Origin: Protonemura montana
Taxonomy: Eukaryota; Arthropoda; Insecta; Plecoptera; Nemouridae
Direction: 5' to 3'
Assembly: GCA_947568835.1 (NCBI GenBank)
Contig: OX387604.1
Span: forward strand, 29,179,351-29,243,350
DNA length: 64,000 nt
Shown here: piece by piece, positions 1,022-40,456 of the stretch
How the letters are laid out: each line of letters opens with the position of its first letter
Position numbering within the stretch: the first letter of the stretch is position 1
Translations under genes and position numbers: made by a program
The notes under the pieces: model-generated
Told to the model about the DNA's origin: nothing
Database searches by the model: none
The model's input: the letters and a program-made list of their open reading frames with translations, nothing else

Positions 1022-2259
1022 AAGTATCGCATCCCACTCCTACACTTATCTTCACGACCGAGAGCATCGCTCTGCGGCGAAGATGTTACTTTTAATCACA
1101 AGACGCTTCTCCATTTCCTCCCATCATTTTGGAAACACGCAAAGATTGAATCTTTCTCCGAACTGAAAGATGTAACGCGCTTTGAATAGTGTTGACACGC
1201 TATTGTGGAAATCCAATTAAGCGGCCCACTGAGAGGTACCTGGTAGTGAGTTGCGATCCAGAATCCTCTCGAGATCTCTGCCAGCCACTCCGATCACTTA
1301 CCATCAGAAAAAAAATACGTGCTATGTCAACATTTTAATGATTTCCTTGGGCTTAACTTTGGATTGGATCCTCTTTTCAAAGTGGAGCCAGGAGGCAGGC
1401 GGAAACCAAACGCCTATGCATGATACGCCGATGGAAAATATAGAGCATGCAAATTCGGAATCGACGAATTGCTGAGCGGAACTTCACTGTGCCATTCCCG
1501 GGCCGAGTGATGGACGTGTTGGAAAATCGATTTCTTTTAATGACGTTAATTACAAATGGCAAATACATTGTCGGGCGTAATAACAAAGCCGTTCTTTGGG
1601 GGCGATCGCGCCCGATAGCAGCAACGTGTTAAAATACGTCATGGCAGATGACGAAACACAGGCCTGGCGACAGTTTGGCGGGGGTGTTGGGTGACATTAC
1701 GGGTGGCCGGTGAATGGGACCCCCTCCCATTGGGGCACATTGGGGCACATTGGGGCTCATTGGGACCCATTGGGGCTCATTGGCACTCATTGTGGAGGCG
1801 CCCGTACGAGCGGACGATTGACCATCCTCGCTGGAATCCCGGTGACAAACCCGGCTCTTTTGCCCAACTAACAGCGCCGCTCTAGTCGGGAATTATTTGC
1901 GGTCCACATTCCGGATTTCAATTCGAGAAGCCATTTTATAAAAAGAGCACCACAAATTGAACGCGACAGGAAATTCGTTAGTCATTAGCCATTTTATCGA
2001 ATGAATGGAGAGCGGTGTTGGTGGTGTTAACAATTTAAGCTGGAGCCCCGCTAGAGCCCCCCTCCCCACCACCACCTCCCCCTCCCCTATCCCTGTGCAC
2101 CCTTTCATATGAGAGCCGTGCGTGTCAAATGAATAAGAAGATAAAGGAATAAAATTCACAGTCCACAATAGCAAAGTTTTCATGCGCGAATTATTTGATA
2201 TTGCAGTGATTGTGAAGTTTCTATTCCACGCACTGTTCGTGTAATATTTGCCAGGATTT
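1022..2259. other. Spacer; includes a short 10-bp repeat
   Basis: No gene recognised. 1728-1795 holds six to seven degenerate copies of CATTGGGGCA/CATTGGGGCT. The remainder up to the giant array is mixed single-copy sequence, with a C-rich stretch at about 2045-2095. Confidence 0.7.
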
Positions 2260-4899
2260 GCGAGACAGTACCGAAGCACTGCGAGACAGTACCGAAGCAC
2301 TGCGAGACAGTACCGAAGCACTGCGAGACAGTACCGAAGCACTGCGAGACAGTACCGAAGCACTGCAAGACAGTACCGAAGCACTGCGAGACAGTACCGA
2401 AGCACTGCGAGACAGTACCGAAGCACTGCGAGACAGTACCGAAGCACTGCGAGACAGTACCGAAGCACTGCGAGACAGTATCGAAGCACTGCGAGACAGT
2501 ATCGAAGCACTGCGAGACAGTACCGAAGCACTGCGAGACAGTACCGAAGCACTGCAAGACAGTACCGAAGCACTGCAAGACAGTACCGAAGCACTGCAAG
2601 ACAGTACCGAAGCACTGCGAGACAGTACCGAAGCACTGCGAGACAGTACTGCGAGACAGTACCGAAGCACTGCGAGACAGTACCGAAGCACTGCAAGACA
2701 GTACCGAAGCACTGCGAGACAGTACCGAAGCACTGCGAGACAGTACCGAAGCACTGCGAGACAGTACCGAAGCACTGCAAGACAGTACCGAAGCACTGCG
2801 AGACAGTACCGAAGCACTGCGAGACAGTACTGCGAGACAGTACCGAAGCACTGCGAGACAGTACCGAAGCACTGCGAGACAGTACCGAAGCACTGCGAGA
2901 CAGTACCGAAGCACTGCGAGACAGTACCGAAGCACTGCAAGACAGTACTGCGAGACAGTACCGAAGCACTGCGAGACAGTACCGAAGCACTGCGAGACAG
3001 TACCGAAGCACTGCGAGACAGTACCGAAGCACTGCAAGACAGTACCGAAGCACTGCGAGACAGTACCGAAGCACTGCAAGACAGTACCGAAGCACTGCGA
3101 GACAGTACCGAAGCACTGCGAGACAGTACCGAAGCACTGCGAGACAGTACCGAAGCACTGCGAGACAGTACCGAAGCACTGCGAGACAGTACCGAAGCAC
3201 TGCGAGACAGTACCGAAGCACTGCGAGACAGTACCGAAGCACTGCGAGACAGTACCGAAGCACTGCGAGACAGTACCGAAGCACTGCGAGACAGTACTGC
3301 GAGACAGTACCGAAGCACTGCGAGACAGTACCGAAGCACTGCGAGACAGTACCGAAGCACTGCGAGACAGTACCGAAGCACTGCGAGACAGTATCGAAGC
3401 ACTGCAAGACAGTACCGAAGCACTGCAAGACAGTACCGAAGCACTGCAAGACAGTACCGAAGCACTGCAAGACAGTACCGAAGCACTGCAAGACAGTACC
3501 GAAGCACTGCGAGACAGTACTGCAAGACAGTACCGAAGCACTGCGAGACAGTACCGAAGCACTGCGAGACAGTACCGAAGCACTGCGAGACAGTACCGAA
3601 GCACTGCGAGACAGTACCGAAGCACTGCAAGACAGTACCGAAGCACTGCGAGACAGTACTGCAAGACAGTACCGAAGCACTGCGAGACAGTACCGAAGCA
3701 CTGCGAGACAGTACCGAAGCACTGCAAGACAGTACCGAAGCACTGCGAGACAGTACCGAAGCACTGCGAGACAGTACCGAAGCACTGCGAGACAGTACCG
3801 AAGCACTGCGAGACAGTACCGAAGCACTGCAAGACAGTACCGAAGCACTGCGAGACAGTACTGCGAGACAGTACCGAAGCACTGCGAGACAGTACCGAAG
3901 CACTGCGAGACAGTACCGAAGCACTGCGAGACAGTACCGAAGCACTGCGAGACAGTACCGAAGCACTGCAAGACAGTACCGAAGCACTGCGAGACAGTAC
4001 CGAAGCACTGCGAGACAGCACTGCAAGACAGTACCGAAGCACTGCGAGACAGTACCGAAGCACTGCGAGACAGTACCGAAGCACTGCGAGACAGTACCGA
4101 AGCACTGCGAGACAGTACCGAAGCACTGCAAGACAGTACCGAAGCACTGCGAGACAGTACCGAAGCACTGCGAGACAGTACCGAAGCACTGCGAGACAGT
4201 ACCGAAGCACTGCGAGACAGTACTGCGAGACAGTACCGAAGCACTGCGAGACAGTACCGAAGCACTGCAAGACAGTACCGAAGCACTGCGAGACAGTACT
4301 GCGAGACAGTACCGAAGCACTGCGAGACAGTACCGAAGCACTGCGAGACAGTACTGCGAGACAGTACCGAAGCACTGCGAGACAGTACCGAAGCACTGCG
4401 AGACAGTACCGAAGCACTGCGAGACAGTACCGAAGCACTGCGAGACAGTACCGAAGCACTGCGAGACAGTACCGAAGCACTGCAAGACAGTACCGAAGCA
4501 CTGCAAGACAGTACCGAAGCACTGCAAGACAGTACCGAAGCACTGCAAGACAGTACCGAAGCACTGCGAGACAGTACCGAAGCACTGCGAGACAGTACCG
4601 AAGCACTGCAAGACAGTACCGAAGCACTGCAAGACAGTACCGAAGCACTGCGAGACAGTACTGCGAGACAGTACCGAAGCACTGCGAGACAGTACCGAAG
4701 CACTGCAAGACAGTACCGAAGCACTGCGAGACAGTACCGAAGCACTGCGAGACAGTACTGCGAGACAGTACCGAAGCACTGCGAGACAGTACCGAAGCAC
4801 TGCGAGACAGTACTGCGAGACAGTACCGAAGCACTGCGAGACAGTACCGAAGCACTGCAAGACAGTACCGAAGCACTGCAAGACAGTACCGAAGCACTG

Positions 4900-6890
4900 C
4901 GAGACAGTACCGAAGCACTGCGAGACAGTACCGAAGCACTGCGAGACAGTACCGAAGCACTGCGAGACAGTACCGAAGCACTGCAAGACAGTACCGAAGC
5001 ACTGCGAGACAGTACCGAAGCACTGCAAGACAGTACCGAAGCACTGCGAGACAGTACCGAAGCACTGCGAGACAGTACCGAAGCACTGCGAGACAGTACC
5101 GAAGCACTGCGAGACAGTACTGCGAGACAGTACCGAAGCACTGCGAGACAGTACCGAAGCACTGCGAGACAGTACTGCGAGACAGTACCGAAGCACTGCG
5201 AGACAGTACCGAAGCACTGCAAGACAGTACCGAAGCACTGCAAGACAGTACCGAAGCACTGCGAGACAGTACCGAAGCACTGCGAGACAGTACCGAAGCA
5301 CTGCGAGACAGTACCGAAGCACTGCGAGACAGTACCGAAGCACTGCAAGACAGTACTGAAGCACTGCAAGACAGTACCGAAGCACTGCGAGACAGTACCG
5401 AAGCACTGCAAGACAGTACCGAAGCACTGCGAGACAGTACCGAAGCACTGCGAGACAGTACCGAAGCACTGCAAGACAGTACCGAAGCACTGCGAGACAG
5501 TACCGAAGCACTGCGAGACAGTACCGAAGCACTGCGAGACAGTACTGCGAGACAGTACCGAAGCACTGCGAGACAGTACTGCGAGACAGTACCGAAGCAC
5601 TGCGAGACAGTACCGAAGCACTGCGAGACAGTACCGAAGCACTGCGAGACAGTACCGAAGCACTGCAAGACAGTACCGAAGCACTGCAAGACAGTACCGA
5701 AGCACTGCGAGACAGTACCGAAGCACTGCGAGACAGTACCGAAGCACTGCGAGACAGTACCGAAGCACTGCGAGACAGTACCGAAGCACTGCGAGACAGT
5801 ACCGAAGCACTGCAAGACAGTACCGAAGCACTGCGAGACAGTACTGCGAGACAGTACCGAAGCACTGCAAGACAGTACCGAAGCACTGCGAGACAGTACC
5901 GAAGCACTGCGAGACAGTACCGAAGCACTGCGAGACAGTACCGAAGCACTGCAAGACAGTACCGAAGCACTGCGAGACAGTACTGCGAGACAGTACCGAA
6001 GCACTGCGAGACAGTACCGAAGCACTGCGAGACAGTACCGAAGCACTGCAAGACAGTACCGAAGCACTGCGAGACAGTACCGAAGCACTGCGAGACAGTA
6101 CCGAAGCACTGCAAGACAGTACCGAAGCACTGCGAGACAGTACCGAAGCACTGCGAGACAGTACTGCGAGACAGTACCGAAGCACTGCGAGACAGTACCG
6201 AAGCACTGCAAGACAGTACCGAAGCACTGCGAGACAGTACCGAAGCACTGCAAGACAGTACCGAAGCACTGCGAGACAGTACCGAAGCACTGCGAGACAG
6301 TACCGAAGCACTGCGAGACAGTACCGAAGCACTGCGAGACAGTACTGCGAGACAGTACCGAAGCACTGCGAGACAGTACCGAAGCACTGCGAGACAGTAC
6401 TGCGAGACAGTACCGAAGCACTGCGAGACAGTACCGAAGCACTGCAAGACAGTACCGAAGCACTGCAAGACAGTACCGAAGCACTGCGAGACAGTACCGA
6501 AGCACTGCGAGACAGTACCGAAGCACTGCGAGACAGTACCGAAGCACTGCGAGACAGTACCGAAGCACTGCAAGACAGTACTGAAGCACTGCAAGACAGT
6601 ACCGAAGCACTGCGAGACAGTACCGAAGCACTGCAAGACAGTACCGAAGCACTGCGAGACAGTACCGAAGCACTGCGAGACAGTACCGAAGCACTGCAAG
6701 ACAGTACCGAAGCACTGCGAGACAGTACCGAAGCACTGCGAGACAGTACCGAAGCACTGCGAGACAGTACTGCGAGACAGTACCGAAGCACTGCGAGACA
6801 GTACTGCGAGACAGTACCGAAGCACTGCGAGACAGTACCGAAGCACTGCGAGACAGTACCGAAGCACTGCGAGACAGTACCGAAGCACTG
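4900..6890. repeat. 1,225-bp-offset duplication within the 21-bp array
   Basis: The block at about 4900-5660 recurs at about 6130-6890. The rare CAGTACTGAA variant is at 5351 and 6576, 13-bp short units are at 5121/6346, 5546/6771 and 5580/6805, and the GCAAG units correspond. Agreement is lost beyond 5665/6890. Confidence 0.8.
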
Positions 6891-8859
6891 CGAGACAGTA
6901 CCGAAGCACTGCAAGACAGTACCGAAGCACTGCAAGACAGTACCGAAGCACTGCGAGACAGTACCGAAGCACTGCGAGACAGTACCGAAGCACTGCGAGA
7001 CAGTACCGAAGCACTGCGAGACAGTACCGAAGCACTGCGAGACAGTACCGAAGCACTGCAAGACAGTACCGAAGCACTGCGAGACAGTACTGCGAGACAG
7101 TACCGAAGCACTGCAAGACAGTACCGAAGCACTGCGAGACAGTACCGAAGCACTGCGAGACAGTACCGAAGCACTGCGAGACAGTACCGAAGCACTGCAA
7201 GACAGTACCGAAGCACTGCGAGACAGTACTGCGAGACAGTACCGAAGCACTGCGAGACAGTACCGAAGCACTGCGAGACAGTACCGAAGCACTGCAAGAC
7301 AGTACCGAAGCACTGCGAGACAGTACCGAAGCACTGCGAGACAGTACCGAAGCACTGCAAGACAGTACCGAAGCACTGCGAGACAGTACCGAAGCACTGC
7401 GAGACAGTACTGCGAGACAGTACCGAAGCACTGCGAGACAGTACCGAAGCACTGCAAGACAGTACCGAAGCACTGCGAGACAGTACTGTGAGACAGTACC
7501 GAAGCACTGCGAGACAGTACCGAAGCACTGCAAGACAGTACCGAAGCACTGCAAGACAGTACCGAAGCACTGCGAGACAGTACCGAAGCACTGCGAGACA
7601 GTACCGAAGCACTGCGAGACAGTACCGAAGCACTGCGAGACAGTACCGAAGCACTGCAAGACAGTACCGAAGCACTGCAAGACAGTACCGAAGCACTGCG
7701 AGACAGTACCGAAGCACTGCGAGACAGTACCGAAGCACTGCGAGACAGTACCGAAGCACTGCGAGACAGCACTGCGAGACAGTACCGAAGCACTGCAAGA
7801 CAGTACCGAAGCACTGCGAGACAGTACCGAAGCACTGCAAGACAGTACCGAAGCACTGCAAGACAGTACCGAAGCACTGCAAGACAGTACCGAAGCACTG
7901 CAAGACAGTACCGAAGCACTGCGAGACAGTATCGAAGCACTGCGAGACAGTACTGCAAGACAGTACCGAAGCACTGCAAGACAGTACCGAAGCACTGCAA
8001 GACAGTACCGAAGCACTGCAAGACAGTACCGAAGCACTGCGAGATAGTATCGAAGCACTGCGAGACAGTACTGCGAGACAGTACCGAAGCACTGCAAGAC
8101 AGTACCGAAGCACTGCAAGACAGTACCGAAGCACTGCAAGACAGTACCGAAGCACTGCGAGACAGTACCGAAGCACTGCGAGACAGTACCGAAGCACTGC
8201 AAGACAGTACCGAAGCACTGCGAGACAGTACTGCAAGACAGTACCGAAGCACTGCAAGACAGTACCGAAGCACTGCAAGACAGTACCGAAGCACTGCGAG
8301 ACAGTACCGAAGCACTGCAAGACAGTACCGAAGCACTGCGAGACAGTACCGAAGCACTGCGAGACAGTACCGAAGCACTGCAAGACAGTACCGAAGCACT
8401 GCGAGACAGTACCGAAGCACTGCGAGACAGTACTGCGAGACAGTACCGAAGCACTGCAAGACAGTACCGAAGCACTGCGAGACAGTACCGAAGCACTGCG
8501 AGACAGTACCGAAGCACTGCGAGACAGTACCGAAGCACTGCGAGACAGTACCGAAGCACTGCAAGACAGTACCGAAGCACTGCAAGACAGTACCGAAGCA
8601 CTGCGAGACAGTACCGAAGCACTGCGAGACAGTACCGAAGCACTGCGAGACAGTACCGAAGCACTGCAAGACAGTACCGAAGCACTGCGAGACAGTACCG
8701 AAGCACTGCGAGACAGTACCGAAGCACTGCAAGACAGTACCGAAGCACTGCGAGACAGTACCGAAGCACTGCGAGACAGTACCGAAGCACTGCAAGACAG
8801 TACCGAAGCACTGCGAGACAGTACCGAAGCACTGCAAGACAGTACCGAAGCACTGCGAG

Positions 8860-11800
8860 ACAGTACCGAAGCACTGCGAGACAGTACCGAAGCACTGCGA
8901 GACAGTACCGAAGCACTGCGAGACAGTACCGAAGCACTGCGAGACAGTACCGAAGCACTGCGAGACAGTACCGAAGCACTGCGAGACAGTACCGAAGCAC
9001 TGCGAGACAGTACCGAAGCACTGCAAGACAGTACCGAAGCACTGCAAGACAGTACCGAAGCACTGCGAGACAGTACTGCGAGACAGTACCGAAGCACTGC
9101 GAGACAGTACCGAAGCACTGCGAGACAGTACCGAAGCACTGCGAGACAGTACCGACGCACTGCGAGACAGTACCGAAGCACTGCAAGACAGTACCGAAGC
9201 ACTGCAAGACAGTACCGAAGCACTGCGAGACAGTACCGAAGCACTGCGAGACAGTACCGAAGCACTGCGAGACAGTACCGAAGCACTGCAAGACAGTACC
9301 GAAGCACTGCGAGACAGTACCGAAGCACTGCGAGACAGTACTGCGAGACAGTACCGAAGCACTGCAAGACAGTACCGAAGCACTGCAAGACAGTACCGAA
9401 GCACTGCAAGACAGTACCGAAGCACTGCGAGACAGTACCGAAGCACTGCGAGACAGTACTGCGAGACAGTACCGAAGCACTGCAAGACAGTACCGAAGCA
9501 CTGCGAGACAGTACCGAAGCACTGCAAGACAGTACCGAAGCACTGCGAGACAGTACCGAAGCACTGCAAGACAGTACCGAAGCACTGCGAGACAGTACTG
9601 CGAGACAGTACCGAAGCACTGCGAGACAGTACCGAAGCACTGCGAGACAGTACTGCAAGACAGTACCGAAGCACTGCGAGACAGTACCGAAGCACTGCGA
9701 GACAGTACCGAAGCACTGCGAGACAGTACCGAAGCACTGCGAGACAGTACTGCAAGACAGTACCGAAGCACTGCGAGACAGTACCGAAGCACTGCGAGAC
9801 AGTACCGAAGCACTGCAAGACAGTACCGAAGCACTGCAAGACAGTACCGAAGCACTGCAAGACAGTACCGAAGCACTGCAAGACAGTACCGAAGCACTGC
9901 GAGACAGTACCGAAGCACTGCGAGACAGTACCGAAGCACTGCGAGACAGTACCGAAGCACTGCAAGACAGTACCGAAGCACTGCAAGACAGTACCGAAGC
10001 ACTGCAAGACAGTACCGAAGCACTGCGAGACAGTACCGAAGCACTGCGAGACAGTACTGAAGCACTGCGAGACAGTACCGAAGCACTGCAAGACAGTACC
10101 GAAGCACTGCGAGACAGTACCGAAGCACTGCGAGACAGTACCGAAGCACTGCGAGACAGTACCGAAGCACTGCAAGACAGTACCGAAGCACTGCGAGACA
10201 GTACCGAAGCACTGCGAGACAGTACCGAAGCACTGCGAGACAGTACCGAAGCACTGCGAGACAGTACTGCGAGACAGTACTGCGAGACAGTACCGAAGCA
10301 CTGCAAGACAGTACCGAAGCACTGCGAGACAGTACCGAAGCACTGCGAGACAGTACCGAAGCACTGCGAGACAGTACCGAAGCACTGCGAGACAGTACCG
10401 AAGCACTGCGAGACAGTACCGAAGCACTGCAAGACAGTACCGAAGCACTGCGAGACAGTACCGAAGCACTGCGAGACAGTACCGAAGCACTGCGAGACAG
10501 TACCGAAGCACTGCGAGACAGTACCGAAGCACTGCGAGACAGTACCGAAGCACTGCGAGACAGTACCGAAGCACTGTGAGACAGTACCGAAGCACTGCGA
10601 GACAGTACCGAAGCACTGCGAGACAGTACTGCGAGACAGTACCGAAGCACTGCGAGACAGTACTGCGAGACAGTACCGAAGCACTGCAAGACAGTACCGA
10701 AGCACTGCAAGACAGTACCGAAGCACTGCGAGACAGTACCGAAGCACTGCAAGACAGTACCGAAGCACTGCGAGACAGTACCGAAGCACTGTGAGACAGT
10801 ACCGAAGCACTGCGAGACAGTACCGAAGCACTGCGAGACAGTACTGCGAGACAGTACCGAAGCACTGCGAGACAGTACTGCGAGACAGTACCGAAGCACT
10901 GCAAGACAGTACCGAAGCACTGCAAGACAGTACCGAAGCACTGCGAGACAGTACCGAAGCACTGCGAGACAGTACCGAAGCACTGCGAGACAGTACCGAA
11001 GCACTGCGAGACAGTACCGAAGCACTGCAAGACAGTACCGAAGCACTGCGAGACAGTACCGAAGCACTGCGAGACAGTACCGAAGCACTGCGAGACAGTA
11101 CCGAAGCACTGCGAGACAGTACCGAAGCACTGCGAGACAGTACCGAAGCACTGCGAGACAGTACCGAAGCACTGCGAGACAGTACCGAAGCACTGCAAGA
11201 CAGTACCGAAGCACTGCAAGACAGTACCGAAGCACTGCGAGACAGTACTGCGAGACAGTACCGAAGCACTGCGAGACAGTACCGAAGCACTGCGAGACAG
11301 TACCGAAGCACTGCGAGACAGTACCGACGCACTGCGAGACAGTACCGAAGCACTGCAAGACAGTACCGAAGCACTGCAAGACAGTACCGAAGCACTGCGA
11401 GACAGTACCGAAGCACTGCGAGACAGTACCGAAGCACTGCGAGACAGTACCGAAGCACTGCAAGACAGTACCGAAGCACTGCGAGACAGTACCGAAGCAC
11501 TGCGAGACAGTACTGCGAGACAGTACCGAAGCACTGCAAGACAGTACCGAAGCACTGCAAGACAGTACCGAAGCACTGCAAGACAGTACCGAAGCACTGC
11601 GAGACAGTACCGAAGCACTGCGAGACAGTACTGCGAGACAGTACCGAAGCACTGCAAGACAGTACCGAAGCACTGCGAGACAGTACCGAAGCACTGCAAG
11701 ACAGTACCGAAGCACTGCGAGACAGTACCGAAGCACTGCAAGACAGTACCGAAGCACTGCGAGACAGTACTGCGAGACAGTACCGAAGCACTGCGAGACA

Positions 11801-13247
11801 GTACCGAAGCACTGCGAGACAGTACTGCAAGACAGTACCGAAGCACTGCGAGACAGTACCGAAGCACTGCGAGACAGTACCGAAGCACTGCGAGACAGTA
11901 CCGAAGCACTGCGAGACAGTACTGCAAGACAGTACCGAAGCACTGCGAGACAGTACCGAAGCACTGCGAGACAGTACCGAAGCACTGCAAGACAGTACCG
12001 AAGCACTGCAAGACAGTACCGAAGCACTGCAAGACAGTACCGAAGCACTGCAAGACAGTACCGAAGCACTGCGAGACAGTACCGAAGCACTGCGAGACAG
12101 TACCGAAGCACTGCGAGACAGTACCGAAGCACTGCAAGACAGTACCGAAGCACTGCAAGACAGTACCGAAGCACTGCAAGACAGTACCGAAGCACTGCGA
12201 GACAGTACCGAAGCACTGCGAGACAGTACTGAAGCACTGCGAGACAGTACCGAAGCACTGCAAGACAGTACCGAAGCACTGCGAGACAGTACCGAAGCAC
12301 TGCGAGACAGTACCGAAGCACTGCGAGACAGTACCGAAGCACTGCAAGACAGTACCGAAGCACTGCGAGACAGTACCGAAGCACTGCGAGACAGTACCGA
12401 AGCACTGCGAGACAGTACCGAAGCACTGCGAGACAGTACTGCGAGACAGTACTGCGAGACAGTACCGAAGCACTGCAAGACAGTACCGAAGCACTGCGAG
12501 ACAGTACCGAAGCACTGCGAGACAGTACCGAAGCACTGCGAGACAGTACCGAAGCACTGCGAGACAGTACCGAAGCACTGCGAGACAGTACCGAAGCACT
12601 GCAAGACAGTACCGAAGCACTGCGAGACAGTACCGAAGCACTGCGAGACAGTACCGAAGCACTGCGAGACAGTACCGAAGCACTGCGAGACAGTACCGAA
12701 GCACTGCGAGACAGTACCGAAGCACTGCGAGACAGTACCGAAGCACTGTGAGACAGTACCGAAGCACTGCGAGACAGTACCGAAGCACTGCGAGACAGTA
12801 CTGCGAGACAGTACCGAAGCACTGCGAGACAGTACTGCGAGACAGTACCGAAGCACTGCAAGACAGTACCGAAGCACTGCAAGACAGTACCGAAGCACTG
12901 CGAGACAGTACCGAAGCACTGCAAGACAGTACCGAAGCACTGCGAGACAGTACCGAAGCACTGTGAGACAGTACCGAAGCACTGCGAGACAGTACCGAAG
13001 CACTGCGAGACAGTACTGCGAGACAGTACCGAAGCACTGCGAGACAGTACTGCGAGACAGTACCGAAGCACTGCAAGACAGTACCGAAGCACTGCAAGAC
13101 AGTACCGAAGCACTGCGAGACAGTACCGAAGCACTGCGAGACAGTACCGAAGCACTGCGAGACAGTACCGAAGCACTGCGAGACAGTACCGAAGCACTGC
13201 AAGACAGTACCGAAGCACTGCGAGACAGTACCGAAGCACTGCGAGAC
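8860..13247. repeat. 2,172-bp higher-order tandem duplication within the 21-bp array
   Basis: Rare unit variants recur at exactly 2,172 bp: CCGACGCAC at 9151 and 11323; ACAGTACTGA at 10051 and 12223; GCACTGTGAG at 10571 and 12743 and again at 10786 and 12958. The GCAAG/GCGAG pattern agrees as well where checked (9023/11195, 11027/13199) and stops agreeing just left of about 8860 (8834 differs from 11006). Two tandem copies of a roughly 100-unit block therefore make up the right 40% of the array. Confidence 0.9.
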
Positions 13248-13265
13248 AGTATCGAAGCACTGCGA

Positions 13266-14775: not shown

Positions 14776-15113
14776 TATGTCCATGTTAAGTGCATTCATT
14801 GAGACTGCAGTTTTCAAATAAGACGTCTTATGGACATCACAAGCTTAAAGGCCGGAAAGTTGATGTATTTTGCTTTCATCCACTCTCACCTACAGTATGG
14901 CGTGTCAGTGTGGGGACACTCACCTAAAGCATCAAGATTATTTAAACTACAGAAAAAAGCGATGCGGATAATGGCGAGAGCAAGCCCCGACCCATGCAGT
15001 GAAATTTTCTATAAGGACTCATGTCGTCCCTTATTTAAAAAATTCAAAATCATGCCTTTTCCATGTATGTATATATTTAACTGTATCATGTTTATTTATA
15101 ATCAGGAAAGAAC

Positions 15114-18100
15114 CACTTCACTGACCTCTGTGAACGTGGAGAAACCCGACACCAGGAATAGGGGGTTGTTAGTGTTGCCCACTTCACTGACCTCTGTGAA
15201 CGTGCAGAAACCCGACACCAGGAATAGGGGGTTGTTAGTGCTGCCCACTTCACTGACCTCTGTGAAACCCGACACCAGGAATAGGGGGTTGTTAGTGTTG
15301 CCCACTTCACTGACCTCTGTGAAACCCGACACCAGGAATAGGGGGTTGTTAGTGTTGCCCACTTCACTGACCTCTGTGAAACCCCACACCAGGAATAGGG
15401 GGTTGTTAGTGTTGCCCACTTCACTGACCTCTGTGAAACCCGACACCAGGAATAGGGGGTTGTTAGTGTTGCCCACTTCACTGACCTCTGTGAAACCCGA
15501 CACCAGGAATAGGGGGTTGTTAGTGTTGCCCACTTCACTGACCTCTGTGAAACCCGACACCAGGAATAGGGGGTTGTTAGTGTTGCCCACTTCACTGACC
15601 TCTGTGAAACCCGACACCAGGAATAGGGGGTTGTTAGTGTTGCCCACTTCACTGACCTCTGTGAAACCCGACACCAGGAATAGGGGGTTGTTAGTGTTGC
15701 CCACTTCACTGACCTCTGTGAAACCCGACACCAGGAATAGGGGGTTGTTAGTGTTGCCCACTTCACTGACCTCTGTGAAACCCGACACCAGGAATAGGGG
15801 GTTGTTAGTGTTGCCCACTTCACTGACCTCTGTGAAACCCGACACCAGGAATAGGGGGTTGTTAGTGTTGCCCACTTCACTGACCTCTGTGAAACCCGAC
15901 ACCAGGAATAGGGGGTTGTTAGTGCTGCCCACTTCACTGACCTCTGTGAAACCCGACACCAGGAATAGGGGGTTGTTAGTGTTGCCCACTTCACTGACCT
16001 CTGTGAAACCCGACACCAGGAATAGGGGGTTGTTAGTGCTGCCCACTTCACTGACCTCTGTGAAACCCGACACCAGGAATAGGGGGTTGTTAGTGCTGCC
16101 CACTTCACTGACCTCTGTGAAACCCGACACCAGGAATAGGGGGTTGTTAGTGTTGCCCACTTCACTGACCTCTGTGAAACCCGACACCAGGAATAGGGGG
16201 TTGTTAGTGCTGCCCACTTCACTGACCTCTGTGAAACCCGACACCAGGAATAGGGGGTTGTTAGTGTTGCCCACTTCACTGACCTCTGTGAAACCCGACA
16301 CCAGGAATAGGGGGTTGTTAGTGTTGCCCACTTCACTGACCTCTGTGAAACCCGACACCAGGAATAGGGGGTTGTTAGTGCTGCCCACTTCACTGACCTC
16401 TGTGAAACCCGACACCAGGAATAGGGGGTTGTTAGTGTTGCCCACTTCACTGACCTCTGTGAAACCCGACACCAGGAATAGGGGGTTGTTAGTGTTGCCC
16501 ACTTCACTGACCTCTGTGAAACCCGACACCAGGAAAAGGGGGTTGTTAGTGCTGCGCACTTCACTGACCTCTGTGAAACCCGACACCAGGAATAGGGGGT
16601 TGTTAGTGTTGCCCACTTCACTGACCTCTGTGAAACCCGACACCAGGAATAGGGGGTTGTTAGTGCTGCCCACTTCACTGACCTCTGTGAAACCCGACAC
16701 CAGGAATAGGGGGTTGTTAGTGCTGCCCACTTCACTGACCTCTGTGAAACCCGACACCAGGAATAGGGGGTTGTTAGTGTTGCCCACTTCACTGACCTCT
16801 GTGAAACCCGACACCAGGAATAGGGGGTTGTTAGTGCTGCCCACTTCACTGACCTCTGTGAAACCCGACACCAGGAATAGGGGGTTGTTAGTGTTGCCCA
16901 CTTCACTGACCTCTGTGAACGTGAAGGAACCCGACACCAGGAATAGGGGGTTGTTAGTGTTGCCCACTTCACTGACCTCTGTGAAACCCGACACCAGGAA
17001 TAGGGGGTTGTTAGTGTTGCCCACTTCACTGACCTCTGTGAAACCCGACACCAGGAATAGGGGGTTGTTAGTGTTGCCCACTTCACTGACCTCTGTGAAA
17101 CCCGACACCAGGAATAGGGGGTTGTTAGTGTTGCCCACTTCACTGACCGCTGTGAACGTGGAGAAACCCGACACCAGAAATAGGGGGTTGTTAGTGTTGC
17201 CCACTTCACTGACCTCTGTGAAACCCGACACCAGGAATAGGGGGTTGTTAGTGTTGCCCACTTCACTGACCTCTGTGAAACCCGACACCAGGAATAGGGG
17301 GTTGTTAGTGCTGCCCACTTCACTGACCTCTGTGAAACCCGACACCAGGAATAGGGGGTTGTTAGTGCTGCCCACTTCACTGACCTCTGTGGACGTGAAG
17401 AAACCCGACACCAGGAATAGGGGGTTGTTAGTGTTGCCCACTTCACTGACCTCTGTGGACGTGAAGAAACCCGACACCAGGAATAGGGGGTTGTTAGTGT
17501 TGCCCACTTCACTGACCTCTGTGAAACCCGACACCAGGAATAGGGGGTTGTTAGTGTTGCCCACTTCACTGACCTCTGTGGACGTGAAGAAACCCGACAC
17601 CAGGAATAGGGGGTTGTTAGTGTTGCCCACTTCACTGACCTCTGTGAAACCCGACACCAGGAATAGGGGGTTGTTAGTGTTGCCCACTTCACTGACCTCT
17701 GTGAAACCCGACACCAGGAATAGGGGGTTGTTAGTGCTGCCCACTTCACTGACCTCTGTGGACGTGGAGAAACCCGACACCAGGAATAGGGGGTTGTTAG
17801 TGTTGCCCACTTCACTGACCTCTGTGGACGTGGAGAAACCCGACACCAGGAATAGGGGGTTGTTAGTGCTGCCCACTTCACTGACCTCTGTGGACGTGGA
17901 GAAACCCGACACCAGGAATAGGGGGTTGTTAGTGCTGCCAACTTCACTGACCTCTGTGAAACCCGACACCAGGAATAGGGGGTTGTTAGTGTTGCCCACT
18001 TCACTGACCTCTGTGAACGTGCAGAAACCCGACACCAGGAATAGGGGGTTGTTAGTGTTGCCCACTTCACTGACCTCTGTGAAACCCGACACCAGGAATA

Positions 18101-19190
18101 GGGGGTTGTTAGTGTTGCCCACTTCACTGACCTCTGTGAAACCCGACACCAGGAATAGGGGGTTGTTAGTGCTGCCCACTTCACTGACCTCTGTGAACGT
18201 GAAGAAACCCGACACCAGGAATAGGGGGTTGTTAGTGCTGCCCACTTCACTGACCTCTGTGAAACCCGACACCAGGAATAGGGGGTTGTTAGTGTTGCCC
18301 ACTTCACTGACCTCTGTGAAACCCGACACCAGGAATAGGGGGTTGTTAGTGCTGCCCACTTCACTGACCTCTGTGAACGTGCAGAAACCCGACACCAGGA
18401 ATAGGGGGTTGTTAGTGTTGCCCACTTCACTGACCTCTGTGAAACCCGACACCAGGAATAGGGGGTTGTTAGTGTTGCCCACTTCACTGACCTCTGTGAA
18501 ACCCGACACCAGGAATAGGGGGTTGTTAGTGCTGCCCACTTCACTGACCTCTGTGAAACCCGACACCAGGAATAGGGGGTTGTTAGTGCTGCCCACTTCA
18601 CTGACCTCTGTGAAACCCGACACCAGGAATAGGGGGTTGTTAGTGCTGCCCACTTCACTGACCTCTGTGAAACCCCACACCAGGAATAGGGGGTTGTTAG
18701 TGCTGCCCACTTCACTGATCTCTGTGAACGTGGAGAAACCCGACACCAGGAATAGGGGGTTGTTAGTGCTGCCCACTTCACTGACCTCTGTGAAACCCCA
18801 CACCAGGAATAGGGGGTTGTTAGTGTTGCCCACTTCACTGACCTCTGTGAAACCCGACACCAGGAATAGGGGGTTGTTAGTGCTGCCCACTTCACTGACC
18901 TCTGTGGACGTGGAGAAACCCGACACCAGGAATAGGGGGTTGTTAGTGCTGCCCACTTCACTGACCTCTGTGAAACCCCACACCAGGAATAGGGGGTTGT
19001 TAGTGTTGCCCACTTCACTGACCGCTGTGAACGTGGAGAAACCCGACACCAGGAATAGGGGGTTGTTAGTGTTGCCCACTTCACTGACCTCTGTGAAACC
19101 CGACACCAGGAATAGGGGGTTGTTAGTGCTGCCCACTTCACTGACCTCTGTGAAACCCGACACCAGGAATAGGGGGTTGTTAGTGTTGCC
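15114..19190 (+). repeat. 57/66-bp coding VNTR inside the LINE ORF
   Basis: About 70 tandem units, each translating as TSLTSVKPDTRNRGLLVLP (19 aa) or, in about 15 units scattered through the array, a 22-aa form with an extra NVE/NVQ/DVK/DVE-type triplet (9 bp). Both lengths are multiples of three, so the frame opened at 14830 stays open to 19215. The first unit has the long form. Minor variants include CTG/TTG in the Val-Leu-Pro codon and PHTRN for PDTRN. The antisense strand is also open (repeats of NNPLFLVSGFTEVSEVG) but has no support as a gene. Confidence 0.96.
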
Positions 19191-19414
19191 ACAGCACAAG
19201 TTATGCCGGCAGTAAACTATACAATGCCTTGCCACCGCATCTTAAAGTAGGAAGCAAATGTAATTTTTAAACTCAACTTTATGACTTCTTGTTAGAAAAT
19301 TGCTTTTATCCAGAGACGATTTTTTTTTTAAATGTAAAAGTTTAAAAAAAATGTAAACATTTGATGACTGTATAAATATCATTCTGTGTTTGATCATCCT
19401 GGACAAATTAACAA

Positions 19415-19416
19415 CA

Positions 19417-19447
<31 letters not shown>

Positions 19448-19458
19448 TATTATCATTA

Positions 19459-19490
<32 letters not shown>
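19415..19490. repeat. (ATT)n microsatellite, probable LINE 3' tail
   Basis: About 25 ATT triplets with a few substitutions, directly after the AT-rich 3' end of the LINE fragment. Confidence 0.93.
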
Positions 19491-19493
<3 letters not shown>

Positions 19494-20415
19494 TTTAACT
19501 CCGTATTAACATTTCTGTTATAACACCTTGAAGTCGTGAACTCTAGAATGTGCAGAATGTCTTCCCCCCCCCCCTCATCCCCCTCTTTTTCCTCGCACCA
19601 GGAAAGTTATGGATGAGCAGGGTCAGGATTTAAAAAATGAGCTTAAAATGGCAATCAAGGAAATGAGTTTCATTAATTTTTGATTTGTAAAATAGTAAAC
19701 GTATTAGTGTAGGGTTCTCTCCACCTACACGCACCAATATAAGATGGTGCGTCTTAGAGCTCAAGGTTGAAATACAATTGAGACTTCCGCTGCTACGCTA
19801 CGAATTCTATAGTGAATTCAATTTTTTCCAACTCTTTTTCTCCTGTGGTTTTCGGTATTTTTCGAAATTTCACCTGCAAAACCCGATCGAATCGCCGTGA
19901 AAATGTGACAGCGCAAGGAGAACCCAGAAAACGAACTGATCTTAGCCCAAGAGCCGACGTTTTCGACCAAATTTCACGATTTCATTAAAGATTTAGAGCA
20001 GTGAGACATCCCAGCCAGTCAGCTGTTTCAAACTATTTCGCAGCTGAATTGTTTGCGTGGATTTTATTGGTGACTGCTTTCCAAGCTTGGGGCAGGCAAA
20101 TGGAGTAATTTATCTCCGTAACACAACATGGACATCGTGGTAAATGTTGAGAAGCTTTCAAACTCAATATTCAGTTCACTAATTGAGTAATTACAGTAAT
20201 TACAGATAAGTTCCACCGTTGAGTGCATCGTTATAACTTGGCATGAACTATTCCCAACGATATGCTAATGACAATCATAGCAACATTCAAAAAGCATATT
20301 TCATTAAACAACAATTCATTCAATTTACAATATTAAATATCAACCAGACGCATACGCATTTAGTTTCGCAAAGACAAAACTGCCCAATGAGAACGCTACC
20401 AGCTGTTTTCACTTA
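19491..20415. other. Single-copy spacer
   Basis: AT-rich, no open frame of note, poly-C run at about 19565-19576. Nothing recognised. Confidence 0.7.
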
Positions 20416-29097: not shown

Positions 29098-29955
29098 GTT
29101 TTCAGTGCCGAAGTTAAGCAACAGTGCGCTGTCAGGTATTGGATGGGTGACCATCATACACATGACCAGTTCTGTTCGGGAGAGAGGTTGGAGGGATGAA
29201 AGTTAAGCAACACTGCGCTGTCAGGTATTGGATGGGTGACCATCATACACATGACCAGTTCTGTTCGGGAGAGAGGTTGGAGGGATGAAAGTTAAGCAAC
29301 ACTGCGCTGTCAGGTATTGGATGGGTGACCATCATACACATGACCAGTTCTGTTCGGGAGAGAGGTTGGAGGGATGAAAGTTAAGCAACACTGCGCTGTC
29401 AGGTATTGGATGGGTGACCATCATACACAAGACCAGTTCTGTTCGGGAGAGAGGTTGGAGGGATGAAAGTTAAGCAACACTGCGCTGAGTCAGGTATTGG
29501 AAGAGTGACCATCATACACATGACCAGTTCTGTTCGGGAGGGAGGTTGGAGGGATGAAAGTTAAGCAACACTGCGCTGAGTCAGGTATTGGATGAGTGAC
29601 CATCAAACACATGACCAGTTCTGTTCGGGAGAGAGGTTGGAGGGATGAAAGTTAGTACAGCAACTTCACTCGCCTTGCTTATCAACCTCTCGACAGCATG
29701 GATTTGTGGAGGAATCCTGTTGTTCGCGTTGTACCGTCCTTCGGAAGGGACGTTAAGCCGGTGGTCCCCTTGGTGCTCTTCGACAGGAGTAGGCTACGTG
29801 CTGGCACCGGGTTTCCCCTCCTCCCTTCTATGCTAGGTAAGGTACATCATTATCATCCTCATCGTCATCCACTCATCCACTGGCGCTATTAGACCAGTGC
29901 CGCATGGCCAGATGTCAAAACAGTGCGTCGTTAAACAAAACAAAATAAATAGATG
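29098..29955 (+). mobile_element. 5S-rRNA-derived SINE with tandem 5S-like head (copy A)
   Basis: The head is six copies of an 89-91-bp unit (29113 to about 29650), each with CGAAGTTAAGCAAC- or AAAGTTAAGCAAC-like and TATTGGATGGGTGACC sequences. These resemble the internal promoter half of 5S rRNA (A-box GCTAAGCA region and C-box TGGATGGGxGACC). The body follows (29650-29940) with CTTCACTCGCCTTGCTTATC, ACGTTAAGCCGGTGGTCC and TTAGACCAGTGCCGCATGGC, and ends in GTCGTTAAACAAAACAAAAT. The layout of a 5S-like head, a conserved body and an A-rich tail fits a SINE3-type element. No coding capacity. The short open frames inside are not genes. Confidence 0.8.
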
Positions 29956-39639: not shown

Positions 39640-40456
39640 GAATATTTATTTATTTGTGGTGTTTAACGACGCACTGTTTTGACATCTGGCCATGCGGCAC
39701 TGGTCTAATGGCGTCGGTGAATGAGAGGATGATAATGAACCTAACTTAGCCTAGAAGGGAAGAGGTTAAACCCGGTGCCGGTACGTAGCCTACTCCAGTC
39801 GAAGAGCACCAAGGGGACCACCGGCTTAACGTCCCTTCCGAAGGACGGCACAACTCGAACAGCAGGATTCCTCCACAAATCCATACTGTCGAGATGTTGA
39901 TAAGCAAGGCGAGTGAAGTTTCTGTACAAAACTTGACTTGACTTGTTGTTGTACTGACTTTCATCCCTCCAACCTCTCTCCCGAACAGAACTGGTCATGT
40001 GAATGGTAGTCCCCCATCCAATACCTGACTCAGCGCAGTGTTGCTTAACTTTCATCCCTCCAACCTCTCTCCCAAACAGAACTGGTCATGTGTATGATGG
40101 TGACCCATCCGATACCTGACCCAGCGCAGTGTTGCTTAACTTGCATCCCTCCAACCTCTCTCCCGAACAGAACTGGTCATGTGTATGATGGTCACCCATC
40201 CGATACCTGACCCAGCGCAGTGTTGCTTAACTTTCATCCCTCCAACCTCTCTCCAGAACAAAACTGGTCATGTGTATGATGGTCACCCATTCAATACCTG
40301 ACTCAGCGCAGTGTTGCTTAACTTTCATCCCTCCAACCTCTCTCCCGAACAGAACTGGTCATGTGTATGATGGTCAGCCATCCAATACCTGACTCAGCGC
40401 AGTATTGCTTAACTTGCATCCCTCCAACCTCTCTCCCGAACAGAACTGGGCGTGGT
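39640..40456 (-). mobile_element. 5S-rRNA-derived SINE with tandem 5S-like head (copy B, inverted)
   Basis: Same family as 29098-29955 in opposite orientation. In the minus sense: five 91-bp 5S-like units (40452 to about 40000), then the body (ending about 39660) with CTTCACTCGCCTTGCTTATC, ACGTTAAGCCGGTGGTCC and TTAGACCAGTGCCGCATGGC, then GTCGTTTAAACACC-type sequence and an AAATAAATA tail at about 39645. Compared with copy A it has a short insertion around 39925-39950 (TTGACTTGACTTG) and scattered substitutions. Non-coding. Confidence 0.8.

Follow-up and report, generated by a model that had tools for sequence, protein, structure and literature searches.

A stretch of 64,000 nucleotides of the Protonemura montana genome (contig OX387604.1 of assembly GCA_947568835.1, C16:29179351-29243350; hereafter, the window) carries a 5'-truncated copy of a long interspersed nuclear element (LINE) with an (ATT)n tail at positions 14810-19491, in which a segment of the second open reading frame (ORF2) is present as a minisatellite of 69 tandem units. 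A second copy of the LINE with such an array, designated c2, lies 117 kb downstream on the same chromosome and in the same orientation. Results of our analysis support the view that the array was seeded by the ORF2 C-terminal motif of the LINE itself. The array very probably arose once, before the two copies separated, and we favor retrotransposition of an array-bearing LINE as the event that carried it to its two sites. The two copies make up a case in which a minisatellite that originated from the coding motif of a LINE apparently moved with the LINE, the ancestral state being visible in single-copy relatives, and in which the seed, a 9-bp deletion, amplification, transfer, and remodelling can be ordered within one genome.

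Composition of the array and its single-copy relatives

The window array, when cut at the unit junction, consists of 53 units of 57 bp and 16 units of 66 bp (n = 69), with no other length, which agrees with the about 70 in-frame tandem copies of an ORF2 motif described in the earlier note on this DNA. Tandem Repeats Finder (TRF) reports a period of 57 with 67.7 copies (score 6575) at 15207-19190. The c2 array has 55 units, namely 31 of 57 bp, 23 of 66 bp, and a single one of 59 bp. Both arrays open with two 66-bp units, after which come consecutive 57-bp units (29 in the window, 11 in c2) and then a mixed part. The spacings between units are divisible by three in 68 of 68 cases in the window and in 53 of 54 in c2.

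The LINE frame of the window copy is open from 14812 to 19212 (1467 codons) and is shifted immediately downstream of the array owing to the loss of about 26 bp that the single-copy loci have. The earlier note placed QHKLCR and then SKLYNALPPHLK downstream of the array; both are indeed present, but they lie in different frames in the window copy because of this loss after the last unit.

Both flanks of the array are dispersed repeats, the left one with at least 35 and the right one with at least 36 matching places in the 258-Mb assembly (34 contigs) that was searched. From this genome, 17 LINE loci were fetched as relatives. Nine of them span the site of the array (L028-L035 and L041), and each of the nine has one unit, whereas the remaining eight begin in the last bases of the unit or further 3' and are uninformative on unit number. 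In the five single-copy loci whose sequences were printed, the unit is 66 bp long and contains nine bases that are absent from the 57-bp form, which supports the earlier proposal that the 66-bp unit is ancestral and the 57-bp unit is its 9-bp deletion derivative. The translations of the single-copy loci L028-L031 run from a FYC(I/F) stretch through (S/L)LT(S/C)VNVEKP(D/N)TRN(R/K)G..(V/G)LPKHKLT with one unit. Because these translations pass through the motif segment with one unit, the minisatellite was seeded by the ORF2 of the LINE, as had been suggested from the window sequence. Intact LINE copies devoid of the motif, which would have spoken against such a seed, were not found among the fetched copies: the motif region is present in all nine that span the site.

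The eight relatives that do not span the site (L036-L040 and L042-L044) have their 5' truncation points within about 41 bp, from the 3' end of the unit onward (5191-5232 in L029). Perhaps the reverse transcriptase (RT) tended to stop there; the clustering may also be a bias of the right-flank query. At another relative, L033 (5078-5520), the start of the LINE copy, at 5519, coincides with the end of a 114-bp tandem array.

The second array-bearing copy

A search of the whole assembly with the unit-junction pattern, with up to three mismatches allowed, gave 122 matches, compared with none for the reversed control. The 100 matches listed of these 122 are all in two C16 arrays, and counting of the same pattern per locus gave 68 junctions in the window and 54 in c2, which add up to 122. 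All 122 tandem junctions are therefore in the two LINE copies, no array away from the LINE was found in the assembly, and the possibility raised earlier that the 57-bp unit is a widespread satellite unrelated to the LINE is not borne out. The flank search that had been proposed to distinguish a local birth of the array from a mobile array gave a partial answer: the spanning copies are single-unit, and one other copy carries an array.

The c2 array (C16:29316487-29319830) is located inside a LINE copy at about C16:29315487-29320097, which starts inside the RT region and ends at the tail. The part of c2 upstream of the array matches Pfam RVT_1 (E 4.8e-24), which places an RT domain in the same element as the array; the window copy is truncated 3' of the RT. 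Like the window copy, c2 ends in an (ATT)n tail, as do the single-copy loci inspected for it (L028, L029, and L030), and the variable 5' truncation combined with a common 3' end and a simple tail, a LINE feature, is seen in the 17 relatives, c2, and the window copy. The insertion site of c2 is uninterrupted in two relatives, L065 (C12) and L066 (C16, about 3 kb further on), which directly supports a clean insertion; such evidence was obtained for c2 only.

No target-site duplication was found at c2 beyond 2-3 ambiguous bases, and none was seen by eye at the printed ends of the window element. In CR1/L2-like LINEs, target-site duplications may be short or absent, and for this reason we do not count their lack as excluding a LINE. 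The element may belong to the CR1/L2/Jockey type, the group named in the earlier note; the RVT_1 match does not decide the clade. Its 82 protein matches are mostly unnamed RT proteins, which give no clade name, and the two solved structures matched are bacterial-type RTs (annotated as retron-type) with E of about 0.001.

The features of the window copy are collected in Table 1.

Table 1. Parts of the array-bearing LINE copy in the window (positions in the window)
Feature	Position	Strand	Remarks
3' part of LINE ORF2, C-terminal to the RT palm; 5' end truncated at about 14810	14810..15114	+	homology to c2 begins at 14810, whereas the LINE of c2 extends further upstream
Minisatellite of 69 units; unit = a single copy of the LINE stretch that codes for TSLTSV(NVE)KPDTRNRGLLVLP	15115..19191	+	
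Remaining ORF2 sequence, then the 3' untranslated region; about 26 bp missing directly after the array, frame broken	19192..19415	+	
(ATT)n tail, 3' end of the LINE	19416..19491	+	TRF period 3

Common origin of the two arrays

As judged from their sequences, the window copy and c2 are sister LINE copies. Their left flanks differ at 6 of 305 aligned bases and share six further substitutions that are exclusive to this pair when compared with the 5-6 other rows readable there; the corresponding split in the tree has a support of 100/99. The pair is also alone in lacking 3 bp of the right flank, which all 17 other rows retain; the branch is not starred there (support 88/83).

A single origin of the two arrays is directly supported by their internal structure. 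The breakpoint of the duplication and the 9-bp deletion are common to both. Eight exact unit types occur in both arrays and account for 56 of the 69 window units and 36 of the 55 c2 units, and the 9-bp indel segregates in both together with several single-base variants, one of them with three shared states. Because the breakpoint, the deletion, the unit types, and the segregating variants are all shared, several unit types were already present in the array before the separation of the window copy and c2, unless the variants were carried between the two loci by interlocus conversion.

Transfer of the array between sites

The sites occupied by the two copies are unrelated: comparison of 3-kb flanks on each side by blastn revealed no shared non-LINE DNA, and a segmental duplication with shared non-LINE flanks was rejected on this basis. 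The two copies begin at different positions of the LINE, and both end at its tail. The uninterrupted c2 site, the differing starts, the common tail end, and the unrelated flanks point to two 5'-truncated LINE insertions.

In the course of events that we consider probable, a tandem duplication of 66 bp within ORF2, in frame and directly 3' of the RT domain, would have taken place in one sublineage of a low-copy LINE family. Our reading of the sequences indicates a 1-base overlap at the ends of the duplicated stretch. A loss of 9 bp from one unit, probably between two GAA triplets, would have followed, after which the 57- and 66-bp units may have multiplied by slippage or unequal exchange. An element with several unit types in its array would have inserted 5'-truncated copies at two sites or more, among them the window copy and c2, and each array may have been remodelled independently after insertion, mostly inside, both copies being broken now. 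We infer here that the array was carried by reverse transcription, that it was amplified by slippage or exchange, and that there was an array-bearing source element, itself unseen.

Several observations weigh against such a transfer by retrotransposition. Two arrays merely 117 kb apart and in the same orientation would seldom be expected from random insertion. The order of units is not clearly conserved between the arrays, as 22 of 300 shuffles reached the observed alignment score. The right flanks are more diverged between the two copies (15 of 223 letter columns, part of these differences being alignment noise beside the 26-bp gap) than the left ones. An uninterrupted relative of the window site was not found with the 3' flank, of which positions 1-262 match only themselves and positions of about 265-554 are a short dispersed repeat; this search covered the 3' flank alone, and the 5' flank adjoins another minisatellite. 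Finally, no other family copy covering the whole RT query, and no full-length carrier of the array, was found among the 123 RT relatives scored of 3232 candidates, where the closest whole-region matches have 61-62% protein identity and two partial ones have 81%. The closeness of the two arrays is partly answered by a bias of the RT relatives to this end of C16: 19 of the 123 scored, c2 included, are in its last 2.3 Mb (C16:27300000-29640000), which is 0.9% of the genome, although this figure is a rough one.

The location of the two arrays on one chromosome, in one orientation and at such a short distance, would also be consistent with a local DNA duplication, in which template switching or break repair, with no RNA intermediate, placed a copy of part of c2 (the array, the 3' end, and the tail) at a distance of 117 kb, and in which the (ATT)n tracts could have acted as a switch point. 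However, the copied piece ends at the 3' end of the LINE itself and includes no flank of c2, and comparison of the 64-kb window with the 30 kb surrounding c2 showed no other long duplicated stretch, the remaining matches being 42-420 bases long and 82-95% identical. Such a duplication appears unlikely to us.

Still less likely is interlocus gene conversion, in which both LINEs were inserted as single-unit copies and an array that grew in one of them was pasted with its flanks into the other. Sister copies located near each other are plausible partners for conversion, and the finding that unit variants are shared while their order is not clearly so would fit it. On the other hand, private changes in the flanks of both copies indicate no recent homogenization, and derived states exclusive to the pair are found on either side of the array, so that a conversion tract would need to extend across both flanks.

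An independent expansion of the two arrays, or an assembly error at one of them, is hardly credible: the window is indeed rich in minisatellites (53.9% of its bases are in arrays of period at least 7, with many different units, compared with a pooled 4.6% of 111 kb around the 17 relatives), but the arrays share their breakpoint, the 9-bp deletion, and eight exact unit types, and the loci differ in length, flanks, and private variants. Around c2, minisatellites make up 11.5% of 30 kb, nearly all of it the c2 array itself (3.34 kb), and this low share beyond its own array indicates that a minisatellite-rich place was not needed for the c2 array.

Open frame across the array

The divisibility of the unit spacings by three, together with a c2 frame that is open from the RT into the 28th unit, might suggest that the array is kept in frame by a present or past function of the expanded ORF2 protein, be it for the host or for the element. 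We regard this as very improbable. Two founding events alone, the duplication of 66 bp and the 9-bp deletion, would set the frame. Among 22 distinct unit changes, 7 are synonymous (32%, compared with 26% expected by chance), four of the 55 c2 units contain TAG and one unit of 59 bp shifts the frame, and the window frame breaks after the array. Moreover, three of the six frames of the window array, one on the plus strand and two on the minus strand, can be read from one end to the other without a stop. We consequently rejected a coding constraint on the array, there being no clear synonymous excess and the c2 array having stops and a frameshift, and the maintenance of the frame hinted at in the earlier note finds no support. 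The absence of stops over 4.1 kb, also pointed out there, is correct for the LINE frame and is weak evidence of coding when half of the array frames are open. The long open frame results incidentally from unit lengths that are multiples of three, and, more generally, long open frames over arrays with such periods should be taken as no evidence of coding.

Since the c2 frame runs from the RT into unit 28, the source element may nevertheless have been translated through its array. It would follow that a LINE with a long in-frame variable number of tandem repeats (VNTR) region beside its RT domain was competent for retrotransposition, that its ORF2 tolerated many extra residues, and that a hypervariable minisatellite spread to new sites in this way; we offer this as a tentative and rather doubtful extension.

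Comparison with known systems

Retroelements bearing VNTRs and in-frame repeats in LINE reading frames are already known, and the present case is a large ORF2 variant of them. In mouse L1, the length polymorphism region of ORF1 consists of 66- and 42-bp repeats whose number differs between families (PMC3600994). As in P. montana, these are in-frame tandem repeats of a LINE reading frame that are inherited by later copies, and an ancestral unit of 66 bp occurs together with a derivative shortened by deletion, of 42 bp in the mouse and of 57 bp in P. montana. The mouse repeats, however, are in ORF1 and number from one to about four units, whereas the arrays described here are in ORF2, number 55 and 69 units, and are in two broken copies.

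In SVA and LAVA elements, VNTRs have unit arrays conserved at the ends and remodelled at the DNA level (PMC4432496), and the VNTR moves with a non-LTR (long terminal repeat) element. The two arrays of one origin with unrelated flanks resemble them in being carried by a mobile element, with the RNA step inferred, and also in their conserved ends and their remodelling at the level of DNA. SVA and LAVA are composite and non-autonomous, are mobilized by L1 in trans, and have their VNTR outside any LINE reading frame (PMC4432496); in contrast, the array of P. montana is derived from the ORF2 of its own LINE, and no composite of several elements was found in it.

Minisatellites of soybean Gmr9/GmOgre, with up to 149 repeats per locus, are also within a retroelement and are mostly found with it, but this is an LTR element in thousands of copies, and the minisatellites are between the coding region and the LTR (PMC3305785). 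LINE ORF2 as a source of tandem repeats is documented by satellites related to it, such as chicken HinfI in the case of CR1, and PROsat and Pvc20 in the case of L1 (review PMC9659126). Those are genome satellites, unlike the present array, which stays inside its LINE at two sites. A CR1 fragment of trematodes is stated not to be tandemly organized (PMC8392823). A LINE ORF2 VNTR of the size reported here was not described in the titles and abstract openings of the listed matches from the open-licence literature.

Other repeats of the window

Repeats of periods 89 and 91 at 29111-29654 and 39640-40449 of the window are members of a family that is dispersed in the genome (40 scored out of 3871 candidates), part of which occurs in extra head-to-tail copies at some loci, also at L038 (4220-4617). 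This family may be a second mobile element with an internal VNTR. Its repeats look similar to 5S rRNA, a resemblance that a comparison with Rfam did not confirm, as no family was detected in the window at the gathering score. The largest minisatellite of the window is formed by 11 kb of a 21-bp unit at 2259-13265.

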